Assembly (NCBI RefSeq): GCF_021729155.1
Contig: NZ_JAJQYA010000024.1
Location: 1-64,000 of the forward strand
DNA length: 64,000 nt
Reading direction: 5' to 3'
Source of the DNA: Membranihabitans marinus
GTDB lineage: Bacteria > Bacteroidota > Bacteroidia > Chitinophagales > Saprospiraceae
The translations under genes and the position numbers were made by a program. This document shows, piece after piece, positions 11,072-48,650 of the stretch. The notes under the pieces are model-generated. The model was given only the letters and a program-made list of their open reading frames with translations. It was not told where the DNA came from and did no database searches. Each line of letters starts with the position of its first letter. Position 1 is the stretch's first letter.

Positions 11072-11880
11072 TGACAAATCAATGAACATCACCATTCATG
11101 GTATCAGTCAATTCACATCAATCTTTGATTTTAATAGAAAAATGATGTATGCTGACGATAGAAATGAATTCCCTCGTCCCTTCAGGACTTTTTTCTAGGA
11201 ATGCATCCTTTTCATAGGGTTTCACCCTATGCTATTAGACTACGTCCTTTCAGGACTTTCTCTTGTTATATTAGATTGGTTTGCCCAAAGCCAATGGCTA
11301 AAACCTAACGAATTACAATGAGATCATGCCATTCAAGCTTAAAAAAGTCCTGAAAGGACGGAATATGTCAGCGTAGGGTGAAACCCTATGAATTAATGGT
11401 CATCTTGAAAAGAAGTCCTGTAGGGACGACATAATATTAATAAGTAAAATCCTGACGATTTACAAGGCAGTCACGACGGAGCCAGTGGCGTCAGTTCCTT
11501 TAATGCTATTATATTATATTGTAAAATGAAATTTTAAACTTGTCAATTTAAATGCAGTCTCGTCGCAGCGCAGTGGCTGCGACTTCTCTCCCCGTAGACC
11601 GATTAACGGTCTACGATGCTTCGCATTTTGGTCGTTCATATTAAGGGCATTTGCTTGCCATTCTGGCAACTCTACTCAGTCATCCTGAAGGGATGATAGG
11701 TCATAGCCGTGGGTGACCGAATGCAGCTCAAAGAGCCAAATGCCTACTAAAGGCATTTGATGAGGGAACCGAGGGATTATTCCCTCGGGTGGGTGAGGTG
11801 TATAAATCATCAGACAATGTTGATTTGGCGGACTTTTTGCTCTATAGACTTTCTTGGACAGATAATCATTGTTTTAATTC
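11072..11880. repeat. Hairpin-chain repeat block, tandem copy 1
   Basis: Non-coding. It contains palindromes of the type GTCCTTTCAGGAC and CATAGGGTTTCACCCTATG (11176-11420), a GTAGACCG-ATTAA-CGGTCTAC hairpin near 11595-11615, and a hairpin chain at 11700-11800 (AAATGCCT-ACTAA-AGGCATTT, then CCGAGGG paired with CCCTCGG). Bases 11072-11653 are repeated with few changes at 11921-12525. Bases 11691-11840 recur almost unchanged, inverted, at 19672-19823. Confidence 0.85.
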
Positions 11881-11920: not shown

Positions 11921-12560
11921 TGACAAATCCCTGAGCATAACCATTCATGGTATCATTCAATTCACAGCAATCTTTGATTTTGATAGAAAATGATGTTTGC
12001 TGACGATAGAAATGAATTCCCTCGTCCCTTCAGGACTTTTTTCTAGGAAGGCATCCTTTTCATAGGGTTTCACCCTATGCTATTAGACTACGTCCTTTCA
12101 GGACTTTCTCTTGTTATATTAGATTGGTTTGCCCAAAGCCAATGGCTAAAACCTAACGAATTACAATGAGATCATGCCATTCAAGCTTAAAAAAGTCCTG
12201 AAAGGACGGAATATGTCAGCGTAGGGTGAAACCCTATGAATTAATGGTCATCTTGAAAAGAAGTCCTGTAGGGACGACATAATATTAATAAGTAAAATCC
12301 TGACGATTTACAAGGCAGTCACGACGGAGCCAGTGGCCTACCCACCCGAATCACGGAGGTTTCGGTTCCTTCAATTTTAATATATTATTATTGAAAAATG
12401 AAATTTAATACTTATCAATAAAAATGCAGTCTCGTCGCAGCACAGTGGCTGCGACTTCTCTCCCCGTAGACCGATTAACGGTCTACGATGCTTCGCATTT
12501 TGGTCGTTCATATTAAGGACATTTGGTTGCTCTATAGAGCAACTACTCTCGGTCATTCAT
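11921..12560. repeat. Hairpin-chain repeat block, tandem copy 2
   Basis: Near-identical to copy 1 over about 590 bp, offset by about 850 bp. It differs by gaining one extra hairpin (12338-12375, reading CCGAAAC-CTCCGT-GATTCGG on the minus strand) between the shared CAGTGGC and TTCCTT sequences. Copy 1 has only a few bases there. No ORF is supported. Confidence 0.85.
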
Positions 12561-19316: not shown

Positions 19317-19930
19317 TTAAAAGAAAAGCCCTGAAAACCGTGCACTGAGCCGCCGCACTGAGCTCTTTCGAAGTGTTGGTCGAAGTGGACGTAGTCTAAT
19401 AGCATAGGGTGACCGAGCAAAGTGCGCGGTACCAGAGCCCGTAAATCGGTCTACGATGAGAGAAGTCATGTCCCCTGGGGTATGACGAGATATTATAAAA
19501 ATAATCGTCAGCAAATATCCTTCCTCTATCAAAATCACAGATTGATCTTAATTGGATGATAACATAAACGGTGATGCTCATGGATTTGTCACACTTTTTG
19601 CCCAGATTATCCAAATATATAATTGTAGAAAATGAAAAAATATGATCTTTTCGTGTCGCGCGATAGTTGATGCAAAAAGTCCGCCAAATCAATATTGTCT
19701 GATGATTTATACACCTCACCCACCCGAGGGAATAATCCCTCGGTTCCCTCATCAAATGCCTTTAGTAGGCATTTGGCTCTTTGAGCTGCATTCGGTCACC
19801 CACGGCTATGACATATCATCCCTGACAGAACGTAGTTGCCCTTTAGGGCAACCAAAGGTCGTAAATCGACCTTTGGTGAAGGAACCGGAGCCACTGTGCT
19901 CCGGCATGACTGCAACGTAATACGATAGGT
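19317..19930. repeat. Hairpin-chain repeat block, largely inverted relative to 11-12.5 kb
   Basis: Bases 19672-19823 are the near-exact reverse complement of 11691-11840. On the minus strand, 19400-19660 also resembles, with more divergence, the sequence at 11860-12100 (GCAAAAAGTGTGACAAATCC, then TGCTGACGAT, then CCCTATGCTATTAGACTACG). At 19835-19905 a plus-oriented chain follows: GTTGCCC paired with GGGCAAC, CAAAGGTCG-TAAAT-CGACCTTTG, CCGGAGC paired with GCTCCGG. So two oppositely oriented elements meet here. Confidence 0.8.
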
Positions 19931-22280: not shown

Positions 22281-22350
22281 CCGCTGACGGGTGACCGAGC
22301 GAAGTTGCTCTTTAGAGCAACCCGGATGGACTTAATGTCCATCGGATGAG
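22281..22350. repeat. Short hairpin-chain repeat
   Basis: GACCGAGCGAA connector, GTTGCTC-TTT-AGAGCAAC type hairpin (22304-22321), then GATGGAC-TTAAT-GTCCATC (22325-22343) and GGATGAG. It sits at the 3' end of the AbiEii toxin gene. Confidence 0.75.
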
Positions 22351-22352
22351 TA

Positions 22353-23327
22353 TCATAAGTAATTCGAGTTTATTTCTTTAACCCTATCCCCTAAAAGATT
22401 TAAAGTGTTTTCTATTTCTTTTTCAGCTGGTAAATCACCGTATACTAACATCCTAAAATCATTGAGATAAGTTGTTTTTAACTTTTTCCATACTTTTTCG
22501 GTTTCCGAAAAAATAATGGCTTTAGAAATAGGATAGTTTAGCCAATCATTTTTCGTCTTAAAACTTAATCTATCACATTCTTTAACACTCAATAGCATTT
22601 CAACAAAATCACCACTCTTAAAAAAAATCTGATTTTTTTCTAATTGTAATAATTGATGTATATCGTAAGTATGCCTTATTTTATCCCTCAATTGCTGAAT
22701 TGGATTATCTCCATAAGAAAAACGCACTAAGCTCATTATTTTCTCACAAATAGTTCTTCTTATATCCATTACATTAACTTCAAATGGTTTCATATCAAAT
22801 TCTTCAGCCAATTTTTCTTGATCAATATCTAGCATCATTTGACCTATGTAAGAATTTATTAACTGCTTATGATAAGGCTCATATCCTCCAAAACTACTAG
22901 CTTCTAATACAATTACATCTCGCACTTGTCCAAATGCCCCTTTATATTCCTTAGGATATTGGTGCACTGTTTTACGTAACATTCCCTTTTTATTCGTCAA
23001 TCCCTCTACATTTATTTCAGGCAGTATTGACTCTATGGATTTACTTGGCTTTTTAACCTTTCGCTCCATGCTACTGTTAGTATCCATATCTTTACGCACC
23101 ATAACCAAATCTATGTCTTCAGAAAAACGTTGTATAACTCCAATACATTTACTTAATGCCGTTCCTCCCTTAAATACGGTTTCTAAACCAATGGGCAAAT
23201 GAAATATGTGATATCAAGACAAGGTAATCCAATAGTCTTTTTCTATATATATTTCTGCAATTCCCAATCGCTGAGCTGTAGCTCTTATAGATTGATTAAA
23301 AAGGGTTTTGTTTACGTGCAATTTCAT
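22353..23327 (-). pseudogene. AbiEii/AbiGii-type nucleotidyltransferase toxin, interrupted by in-frame TGA
   Basis: The ATG at 23327 overlaps the stop of the AbiEi gene (ATGA). The frame reads MKLHVNKTLFNQSIRATAQR up to EKDYWITLS, hits TGA at 23214-23216 (codon 38) and continues in the same frame as YHIFHLPIGLETVFKGGTAL and onward to 22353. The part after the stop holds the family's nucleotidyltransferase motifs (FKGGTALSKC and RFSEDIDL). In intact relatives EKDYW.T leads directly into this region, so the TGA is a nonsense change. Only a TTG (23198) could restart before the motifs. Intact AbiEii toxins transfer nucleotides to tRNA and block growth; this copy is probably inactive unless read through. 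Confidence 0.8.
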
Positions 23328-24176: not shown

Positions 24177-24340
24177 TGTGAGCGAGCGAAATGCGAAGCA
24201 TCGTAGACCGTAAATCGGTCTACGGCGAGTACGACCGAATATAGTACGAAGTATCTAATCCATTAAATATGGATTGGATGAGGGAGCCGAGGTCACTGCA
24301 CCTCGGGTGGGTTAGTCACTGTGCTGTGACGAGACTGCAT
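24177..24340. repeat. Hairpin-chain repeat
   Basis: Hairpins in order: ATGC-GAA-GCAT, GTAGACCG-TAAAT-CGGTCTAC (24203-24223), a second GTAC-GAA-GTAT unit, ATCCAT-TAAAT-ATGGAT (near 24258-24275), CCGAGGT-CACTGC-ACCTCGG (24287-24306) and GTCAC-TGTGCT-GTGAC (24315-24330). Confidence 0.8.
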
Positions 24341-25039: not shown

Positions 25040-25405
25040 GATTTTTGAATGACTGAATGTAGTTGCCCTTTAGGGCAACCAAAGGTCGTAAATCGACCTT
25101 TGATGAAGGAACCGAGAGCTCCGTCTCTCGTGTGGGCTAGCCGTTAGACGAGGCAACGACTGAATATAACTGAATGAAGTCACATACTGACCAAATACCC
25201 TCAATGGATGACCGAATGCAGTACATTATCGAACATAATACGTAGTATCATTGACCGTAAATCGGTCAATGGTGAGATCACCACAGCTACCATGCTGTGG
25301 GTGGGTGAGGAAAGGTCGTAAATCGACCTTTGATGAAGGAACAGAGAGCTCCGTCTCTCGGATGGAATGGCCACTGTGCTCCGGGTGGGTCTACCTCCGC
25401 GCATT
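25010..25405. repeat. Hairpin-chain repeat inserted in the Fic gene
   Basis: Left end AATTACGTTTTATGATG matches the element end at 47401-47420. Hairpins: GTTGCCC paired with GGGCAAC (25062-25079), CAAAGGTCG-TAAAT-CGACCTTTG (25080-25102), CCGAGAG-CTCCGT-CTCTCG (25112-25130), a GACCG-TAAAT-CGGTC unit near 25253-25273 and another AAAGGTCG-TAAAT-CGACCTTT at about 25313-25334. No right terminal repeat is recognisable. Confidence 0.8.
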
Positions 25406-31640: not shown

Positions 31641-31984
31641 TAATACGAATTACATTTGGTAATCACTGAAGGAACCGAAACCACCGTGTTTCGGGAGGGT
31701 CCAGCAAAGCACCAGTACAGCTGTATACATTACATCTCTATTCAAAATAATTTAGATGCAATGCATTGCATCTCTACAATAATTCGAAAAATAACCGAGT
31801 AAAGTACGAAGTACTGAAGGTAGTAAATCTACCTTCAACGAGGATGACCGAGCAAAATCCGAAGGATCAAAGATCGTAAATCGACCTTTGGCGAGGGAAC
31901 CGGAACCTCCGCGTTCCGGGTGCGCTAGCCAACCTCCGTGTCGTGGATGGGTGAGCTTATCAATTATAAACGTACTTGGTATTA
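31641..31984. repeat. Hairpin-chain repeat with both terminal inverted repeats
   Basis: Left end TAATACGAATTACATTT (31641-31657), right end AATTATAAACGTACTTGGTA (from 31962), imperfectly inverted. Inside: CCGAAAC-CACCGT-GTTTCGG (31675-31694), a GATGCAATGCATTGCATC palindrome (near 31755), AGTAC-GAA-GTACT, AAGGTAG-TAAAT-CTACCTT, a TAAAT hairpin at about 31869-31890 and CCGGAAC-CTCCGC-GTTCCGG (31900-31919). Confidence 0.8.
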
Positions 31985-47395: not shown

Positions 47396-47623
47396 AATAT
47401 GAATTACATTTTATGATGACGGAAAAGATTTCGAATGACCGAGCGAAATGCAAAGCATCGAAGGTCGTAAATCGACCTTCGGCGAAGGAACCGAGGCTAC
47501 CATGCCAAGGCATGACTGCCCTATAAATCATTACGTCTCAATCCAAAATATTTTAGAAGCAATGCATTGCGTCTCTACAATAAATCGAAAGATTACCGTT
47601 AATTATAAATGTAATTTGTATTA
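47396..47623. repeat. Complete small hairpin-chain element with terminal inverted repeats
   Basis: Left end AATATGAATTACATTTTATG (47396-47415) and right end AATTATAAATGTAATTTGTA (47601-47620) are inverted copies with few mismatches; total about 228 bp. Inside: ATGC-AAA-GCAT, GAAGGTCG-TAAAT-CGACCTTC (near 47460-47481), a CCGAGGC hairpin, and GAAGCAATGCATTGCGTCTC near the right end. Confidence 0.8.
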
Positions 47624-47759: not shown

Positions 47760-48650
47760 ATAAAGTCCTGAAAGGACCACTTGGAGTAAATACAAAAAAC
47801 ACCCCTAAATTAAGAGCATTTGGTAGTCTATCATACTACTACTTCATTCAGTTGTGGCTCTACAATAAATCGAAAGATAACCGAGTAAAGTACGAAGTAC
47901 TGAAGGTAGTAAACCTACCTTCAACGAGGATGACCGAGCATGACTGAATGCAGTTACTCGAAGAGTAACCCAATTGATTAAATATCAATTGGATGAAGGA
48001 ACCGAGGGTTCCATCCCTCGGGTGGGTGGACAAAAGGATCAAAGATCGTAAATCGACCTTTGACGAGGATGACTGAACATGACTGAATGAAGTTGTCCAG
48101 AGGACAACCCAATCCAGTAAATGTGGATTGGATGAAGGAACCGAGGGTTCCATTCCTCGGGTGGGTGGCCAAGAGTATCCAATCGACTAAATGTCGATTG
48201 GGTGAAGGAACCGAAACCTCCGTGTTTCGGGTGGGTTGGCCACCGCGTTCCGGGTGTGAACGAGCAAAGTGCTTGCACCTGAGCCCGTAAATCGGGCTCT
48301 GGCGAGAACGACCAAATGCAGTACGAAGTACCCAATCCACTTAATGTGGATTGGATGAGGGAGCCGAGGTCTCTGTACCTCGGATGGGTGGCCAGCCTCC
48401 GTGTCGTGACAACACTACATTAAAATCGAGAAGTATTAAATTACATTTTTCAATAATAACATAATAAAATTGAAGGAACCGAAACCTCAGCGTCTCGGGA
48501 GGGAGTGCCAGCATAGCCGTAGCTACGGTGTGACTGAGTAAAGTTGCCAGAATGGCAACCAAATGCCGTAAATCGGCATTTGACGATGGAACCGAGGCCA
48601 CTGTGCCGAGGTATGACTGAGCTTATAAATTATAAATGTAATTCGTATAA
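47760..48650. repeat. Longest hairpin-chain array of the window
   Basis: About 890 bp. TAAAT/TTAAT-loop hairpins at 47970-47992 (stem CCAATTGAT), 48109-48131 (CCAATCCA), 48179-48201 (CCAATCGAC), 48291-48309 (GAGCCCG), 48332-48354 (CCAATCCAC) and 48561-48581 (AAATGCCG). In front of several stands a GTT...AAC hairpin (47953-47969, 48092-48108, near 48543-48558); behind them a CCGA...TCGG hairpin (48002-48021, 48211-48230). The right end (48628-48650) is the terminal repeat; the left limit is unclear. Confidence 0.85.

Follow-up and report, generated by a model that had tools for sequence, protein, structure and literature searches.

What maintains chains of intergenic hairpins that vary in their stems between copies while their loops and linkers stay alike? 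The question is raised by a 64,000-nucleotide stretch of the Membranihabitans marinus genome (the window), in which a sequence-only reading had described chains of three hairpin types whose two arms change together. A search with model R2 returned 21 matches in the window at E<=1e-4, forming about seven clusters at about 11.5-12.5, 19.4-19.9, 22.3, 24.2, 25.1-25.3, 31.6-31.9, and 47.4-48.6 kb (Table 1). The hairpins sit where they had been placed, and all seven of the hairpin-2 stems and all three of the hairpin-3 stems named at the outset were located. Twelve perfect stems of at least 9 bp surround TAAAT or TTAAT in the window; a chance origin was rejected, as such stems were absent from all 60 random sequences generated to match its first-order composition. 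The structural finding is confirmed as real and well supported.

Architecture of the hairpin units

A full unit consists, in order, of the motif GACYGARYGNAG, hairpin 1, hairpin 2, the linker RYGARGGAA, hairpin 3, and the tail GTGGGT, and units are found singly or as chains. Hairpin 1 has a stem of 4 to 8 bp and a loop of 3 to 6 bases, frequently GAA or TTTA. Hairpin 2 abuts it directly and has a 9-bp stem, and hairpin 3 has a 7-bp stem closed by six loop bases, for instance CACTGT or CTCCGT. The initial description is to be corrected by a further hairpin, hairpin 1, which likewise has a variable paired stem and lies immediately 5' of hairpin 2.

Several elements described as invariant proved to be consensus features. 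The supposedly constant connectors are consensus motifs, with exact GACCGAGCGAAGT occurring once and exact GGATGAAGGAACC twice in the window. The hairpin-2 loop is chiefly, and not always, TAAAT or TTAAT: stretches from the same genome gave 184 TAAAT, 29 TTAAT, and 27 others (n=240), and the window itself has TAAAC at 47910-47914 and ACTAA in units 11715-11796 and 19716-19797. The claim that each stem meets its exact complement on the other arm is true of 195 of 240 hairpin-2 stems, identified by a parser that requires at least 8 of 9 pairs (wobble allowed), 7 of them Watson-Crick, and is thereby biased to perfect stems, and of 149 of 219 hairpin-3 stems, retained only with at least 5 of 7 Watson-Crick pairs; the rest are imperfect. 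One defective hairpin 3, CCGAGGC-CACTGT-GCCGAGG, whose outer bases are partly unpaired, makes up 14 of the 219 hairpin-3 instances in stretches from this genome, indicating that imperfect pairing is no bar to copying.

In alignments A2 and A5, the bases preceding hairpin 1 are variable (GTAG, ATAG, GCAG, GAAG, AAAG, AAAA, among others). The aligned unit starts with GACYGA.. and ends with ..GGGTGGGT, which are not mutually inverted in the manner of MITE termini, and the ends of the mobile piece may differ from these. Long minus-strand frames over the chains (e.g., window 47980-48340) were dismissed by eye as by-products of the repeat. Between 11000 and 12500, the window also contains two near-identical repeat copies of ~400 bp, ~850 bp apart, with hairpin units before each and differing joins.

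Table 1. Hairpin units and associated repeats (window coordinates unless a locus is named)
Feature	Position	Strand	Details
Unit	11555..11637	-	hairpin 2 CGTAGACCG-TTAAT
Full unit	11715..11796	+	loop ACTAA
Unit abutting interrupted hairpin 2	12427..12509	-	..CCAAATGTCCTTAAT then ATGAACGA..
Degenerate unit	19411..19493	+	
Full unit	19716..19797	-	loop ACTAA
Full unit	19824..19912	+	hairpin 2 CAAAGGTCG; hairpin 3 CCGGAGC
Hairpin 1 + hairpin 2 alone	22293..22362	+	
Chain	24180..24314	+	hairpin 1 + 2 module 24180-24232, then full unit 24233-24314
Full unit	25051..25139	+	hairpin 2 CAAAGGTCG
Full unit	25227..25308	+	hairpin 2 CATTGACCG; hairpin 3 CCACAGC-TACCAT-GCTGTGG
Hairpin 2 + hairpin 3, hairpin 1 not recognised	25310..25361	+	AAAGGTCG-TAAAT; CAGAGAG-CTCCGT-CTCTCGG
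Chain	31793..31927	+	hairpin 1 + 2 module, then full unit with hairpin 3 CCGGAAC-CTCCGC-GTTCCGG
Unit (model matches)	47437..47518	+	motif 47437-47447; hairpin 1 ATGC-AAA-GCAT 47448-47458; hairpin 2 CGAAGGTCG-TAAAT 47459-47481; linker 47482-47490; imperfect hairpin 3 47491-47510
Hairpin 1 + hairpin 2, without hairpin 3	47879..47936	+	TGAAGGTAG, loop TAAAC, 47901-47923; abuts next module
Full unit	47942..48029	+	hairpin 1 GTTACTC-GAA-GAGTAAC 47953-47969; hairpin 2 CCAATTGAT-TAAAT 47970-47992; linker 47993-48001; hairpin 3 CCGAGGG-TTCCAT-CCCTCGG 48002-48021; tail GTGGGTGG
Full unit	48081..48168	+	hairpin 1 GTTGTCC-AGA-GGACAAC 48092-48108; hairpin 2 CCAATCCAG-TAAAT-GTGGATTGG 48109-48131, one G.G mismatch adjoining loop; hairpin 3 48141-48160, one G.T
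Hairpin 2 + hairpin 3, hairpin 1 not recognised	48179..48238	+	hairpin 2 CCAATCGAC-TAAAT 48179-48201; linker 48202-48210; hairpin 3 CCGAAAC-CTCCGT-GTTTCGG 48211-48230; tail GTGGGTTG
Hairpin 2	48281..48299	+	GAGCCCG-TAAAT-CGGGCTC
Full unit	48310..48391	+	hairpin 1 GTAC-GAA-GTAC 48321-48331; hairpin 2 CCAATCCAC-TTAAT 48332-48354; linker 48355-48363; hairpin 3 CCGAGGT-CTCTGT-ACCTCGG 48364-48383
Full unit	48532..48619	+	hairpin 1 GTTGCCA-GAA-TGGCAAC 48543-48559; hairpin 2 CAAATGCCG-TAAAT 48560-48582; imperfect hairpin 3 48592-48611
Acido-Lenti-1 Rfam matches	11213-11257, 11346-11390, 12061-12105, 12194-12238; L103 near 1150-1480; L081 5941-5985		
165-bp palindromic repeat	L102 about 1610-1780; L103 about 1995-2175; L104 about 1160-1340; many other loci of the same genome		

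Covarying stems and stem alleles

In an alignment of the 12 window units made with MAFFT and no model fitting, 96.8% of cells are paired and 16 of 18 pairs vary on both sides. Covariation is 0.748 in this alignment, compared with 0.224 after shuffling and at most 0.157 with slid partners. It reaches 0.765 (0.212 shuffled, at most 0.127 slid) in a five-genome alignment (88 rows, 85 distinct) and 0.777 (0.177 shuffled; 94.4% of cells paired) in units of further genera found with model R2 (64 rows, 59 distinct), rows that lay outside model building yet were aligned to the model. Alignments A3, A4, and A5 were fitted to the model structure and favor it, and the shuffle controls leave relatedness among units in the scores. 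Units from congeneric genomes differ in the stems of all three hairpins while their linkers are much alike, and loops and linkers are conserved across genera.

These patterns bear on the two causes first proposed, selection on a fold or replacement of whole stems. Covariation in the window, the five genomes, and other genera supports selection on a paired strand or its active maintenance, and wholesale replacement is not required. The counter-proposal, that all stem variants trace to a few copied ancestors, holds insofar as hairpins 1 and 2 co-occur in sub-families (MI 2.36 versus 0.83 permuted, n=184) and fails insofar as sub-families and genera still covary.

We consider it probable that the units are a non-autonomous, intergenic, chain-forming repeat of the Saprospiraceae, propagated as a folded single strand in which a stem may vary provided that both arms change. 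The machinery would recognise the unpaired linkers and loops; stems would need only to pair and would therefore be free to drift when both arms change. Paired changes could arise by ordinary two-step mutation, perhaps aided by replication template switching between arms. Integron attC sites are likewise recombined as a folded single strand and are recognised by shape, with variable stem sequence; they are found beside gene cassettes and contain R/L boxes.

Stems that covary strongly beside conserved loops and linkers would also fit a functional structured RNA family (a 3' UTR element, attenuator, or small RNA) that has been amplified in this genome and in which RNA folding preserves pairing, an explanation that we judge improbable. 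Intergenic hairpins that covary strongly need not be functional RNAs. Mismatches in the stems speak on both sides. Among distinct stems, G-T outnumbers A-C by 33 to 14 in this genome and by 27 to 16 in other genomes, the latter count leaving out incomplete or poorly paired stems (pooled 60 versus 30, p 0.002); other mismatches are about as common as G-T and A-C. The excess fits folding of the plus strand, which is compatible with RNA and a point in its favor. G-T nevertheless accounts for only 12 of 2160 hairpin-2 pairs, as counted by a parser that accepts no more than two non-Watson-Crick pairs in a stem, and this scarcity of G-U pairs argues against RNA. Further, a single base pair separates the two members in 15 pairs of perfect hairpin-2 stems, through a transition in 8 and a transversion in 7, and transversions cannot go via G-U, which favors DNA. 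The low G-T level and the transversions thus speak rather for DNA, and the strand in which the repeat spreads is more likely DNA than RNA.

The same differences are relevant to an account that dispenses with selection on the fold, in which template switching or conversion between arms and copies keeps the palindromes perfect and recombination between repeats spreads them. Template switching is able to generate and preserve perfect stems, compensatory changes of several bases included (PMC8794818), and perfect stems that differ by transversions as well as transitions agree with this account, as do mosaic stems and junctions. Arm correction leaves the conservation of loops and linkers across genera unexplained, inverted loops expected from some switches are rare (ATTTA 0 and ATTGA 1 of 240), and the excess of G-T makes the mismatches strand-asymmetric; we give this account a low probability.

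The DNA examined from this genome contains 240 distinct hairpin 1+2 modules, in which the hairpin-2 stem pairs take 63 distinct forms, 27 of them perfect; the commonest stems are CAAAGGTCG (36), CATTGATCC (16), CAAATGCCG (14), and CCAATCGAC (13). One-arm intermediates are present for 5 of the 15 one-base-pair differences, and stems look as if they change stepwise with both arms kept paired, beside any wholesale replacement. At a locus of another genus (L276), two neighboring tandem copies of 80 bp differ by a paired change, one having CCTCAAC/GTTGAGG and the other CCTCGAC/GTCGAGG. Hairpins 2 and 3 occur in 32 combinations from 13 x 9 alleles (MI 1.43, permuted 0.77, entropy 2.59, n=81); in this and the hairpin 1/hairpin 2 comparison, alleles seen fewer than 4 times were dropped, leaving 81 and 184 modules. 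The stems are discrete alleles that are in part reassorted between hairpins. This large natural set of hairpins, with conserved loops and linkers and nearly free stems within one genome and across genera, makes it testable whether compensatory changes come about step by step or through template switching, and how repeats without a recognisable transposase spread.

Distribution, genomic context, and relation to known repeats

Searching the genome and its relatives with a covariance model, as the sequence-only reading had suggested, proved productive. Model R1, built from the 12 window units, gave at least 164 matches at E<=0.1 in the 5.4-Mb genome with 150 of 3515 candidates scored (weakest among the matches listed, 9.5e-13), and 5 of 40 genomes searched as relatives were positive, this one included. 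With R2, units were found in at least 28 of 150 sampled Saprospiraceae genomes and at least 25 of 112 genera, in widely varying numbers, and in a phylum-wide sample at least 3 of 395 genomes were positive, all of them Saprospiraceae. At most 30 candidates per genome were scored in the family sample and at most 11 in the phylum sample, with stricter filters, so these counts and absences are lower bounds, above all in the phylum sample. Presence is patchy within one family, the Saprospiraceae.

The units avoid genes. None of 68 merged loci of this genome lies within a gene (826 kb, ~80% coding by ORF calls; long stretches picked around known units, and frames of <700 nt spanning a unit set aside beforehand). 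A count on short loci had placed 5 chains inside open frames, which were afterwards judged to be repeat frames. The 61 classifiable loci fall between convergent (27), tandem (28), and divergent (6) genes, compared with 78, 405, and 78 among 561 background gene pairs. Location between convergent genes, the site of 3' UTRs, favors a structured RNA; the absence of a preferred sense orientation between tandem genes (17 units antisense, 11 sense) speaks against one. An antisense bias of 19 to 6 on short loci, where 56 of 158 chains were classifiable, was not upheld on these longer stretches.

Orientation is opposite to GC skew at 43 loci and the same at 21 (loci not independent). Over 42 regions, several of which share contigs, the relation has a Spearman coefficient of -0.41 (p 0.007) and by sign is 25 to 15 (p 0.15), which is weakly suggestive of a tendency of units to oppose regional GC skew. 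Neighboring units on contigs have the same orientation in 33 of 53 cases (p about 0.06). Gene strand and unit orientation showed no clear relation in the loci and regions of this genome, and a search for synteny around the chain in two congeneric genomes returned nothing beyond fragments of repeats and a single distant match.

Among 92 clusters of similar frames near the units, none stood out as transposase-like, and the absence of a mobilising gene from these searches counts against the mobile-repeat reading: the largest cluster, with 153 distinct members, consists of frames reading through the repeats, and the next ones have 8 members, all from genome G002, and 7 members from this genome that are sulfatase-like by eye. 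One alternative is an ordinary REP/REPIN mobilised by a host Y1 (RAYT/IS200-type) transposase. In Pseudomonas REPINs, which form intergenic clusters, compensatory changes involving both arms are reported to be common (PMC3116915), and this genome has three Y1 genes, one of which (L103) has two units within ~1.1 kb upstream. Across 150 genomes, presumed identical in the two samples compared, 110 have a Y1 transposase, which occurs in 20 of 28 unit-bearing and 90 of 122 other genomes and is thus not associated with the units; genomes G015 and G067 have 28 and 27 unit matches and no Y1 match. When 33 Y1 loci were scanned, units were found near L103 only and at 0 of the 30 loci from other genomes. 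Together with the lack of a constant GTAG or CGTC tag, this makes the Y1 explanation very unlikely, and we rejected Y1/RAYT as the mobiliser on the missing association across genomes and at Y1 loci.

Known RNA families were rejected as well. Rfam 15 has no family above its gathering score on the units, the best chain matches being 19.4 and 19.3 bits against thresholds of 63 and 80; only tRNA and Acido-Lenti-1 matched, outside the units, and this lack of a match counts against a structured RNA. The original remark that no described family matches the pattern holds against Rfam 15 and among the open-licence PMC papers listed, where, by title and abstract start, neither the family nor its mosaic grammar was found described. 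The Acido-Lenti-1 matches fall in repeated DNA with GTCCTGAAAGGAC / CATAGGGTGAAACCCTATG hairpins. By eye, similar hairpins lie upstream of a Y1 transposase gene at L103, and the Acido-Lenti-1 "RNA" may therefore be a REP of that transposase.

The further remark that REP-type repeats do not explain the pattern did not stand, as compensatory hairpin changes are common in the Pseudomonas REPINs of PMC3116915 and the principle is therefore already known. Like REPINs and BIMEs (REP doublets of Pseudomonas and enterobacteria) as portrayed there, the units are short, intergenic, palindromic, high-copy repeats that cluster and show compensatory hairpin changes. REPINs end in conserved 16-mers that overlap with the REP, and their spacer pairs (PMC3116915), whereas our units have three successive variable-stem hairpins with conserved loops and linkers. 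They differ from REPs and REPINs also in having no fixed GTAG/CGTC tag and no Y1 association. The CGTC- and GTAG-tagged REP super-families are also small palindromic repeats and occur across phyla; the CGTC families apparently have no dedicated transposase (PMC3733652), and both super-families have a fixed unpaired tetranucleotide, unlike the units aligned here.

BOX elements of Streptococcus pneumoniae and S. suis are similarly modular: their internal modules vary in number, hairpins are predicted in them, they cluster with other repeats, and open frames lie inside the element (PMC3049150). They are defined by boxA, boxB, and boxC sequences and IS-like terminal inverted repeats (PMC3049150); by that description, the units differ in that their stems covary and reassort and in having no apparent terminal inverted repeat. 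The family unites REPIN-, BOX-, and GTAG/CGTC-like traits in a single element whose three hairpins have variable stems, and it is likely a REPIN/BOX-like repeat family and not a new RNA class. Its unusual features are the mosaic grammar and the junctions formed at hairpin loops.

Chains, junctions, and insertion

The 162 chains contain 1 to 5 hairpin 1+2 modules each (107, 39, 10, 5, and 1 chains, respectively), and the junctions between their parts recur. Among 304 module starts, counted only with a recognisable hairpin 1 and sorted by simple text patterns, the preceding element is the hairpin-2 linker in 62, the hairpin-2 loop directly in 21, the hairpin-1 5' arm in 12, the hairpin-3 tail in 12, GACYGARC in 18, another repeat in 12, and an inverted hairpin 3 in 10; 29 lie within a 165-bp palindromic repeat or GTAGAGAC context, and 128 are unclassified. 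Twelve loop junctions were read out, and in all 12 the module start replaces the 3' arm right behind the loop. In 7 of the 12, the sequence picks up past the inserted unit near a GARGGAACC-type linker (a variant linker at L101).

A unit also interrupts a serine-recombinase gene in two paralogs of genome G067, for which two intact paralogs are available for comparison. Here (L270 versus L291 and L292) ~14 bp are replaced with no evident target duplication, a single clear event. Among 158 units of other genomes searched for further interrupted genes, the serine recombinase alone was convincing. Copy number, mosaic joins, and gene interruption are repeat-like and weigh further against a structured RNA.

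For a repeat that would spread as a folded single strand, these junctions suggest how chains could form. The start of a new module (RTGACYGA..) may join next to or within a resident hairpin, in many cases with loss of a target arm, and chains and mosaics would grow for this reason. A more specific version is a self-targeting element, whose single-stranded copies would be pasted in by the loop or arm of resident like hairpins, replacing part of them; the outcome would be chains of interchangeable hairpins, made by a machinery other than Y1/RAYT, with stems drifting freely. It is hinted at by the 21 starts after a hairpin-2 loop and the 12 after a hairpin-1 arm, by the missing 3' arm in the junctions read out, and by the gene insertion with its replaced bases, and as a joint claim it is tentative and on the doubtful side.

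The DNA examined from this genome has many copies of the 165-bp palindromic repeat (ACGAATTACATTTT..AAATGTAATTCGT), which forms mosaics with the hairpin chains and is itself mosaic. Its left breaks lie mostly at consensus 40-42, 65, 92-94, or 140, and its right side resumes mostly at 75, 121, or 143, in many left/right combinations. In genome G097, from another genus, locus L262 has two plus-strand units 248 bp apart (1253-1585) and, on the minus strand at 1853-2251, three matches 162 bp apart; the tandem repeats of this locus carry a recurring translated frame. In genome G100, tandem units (L275, 242-1058) adjoin a tRNA gene, and part of the end of that gene recurs between the units.
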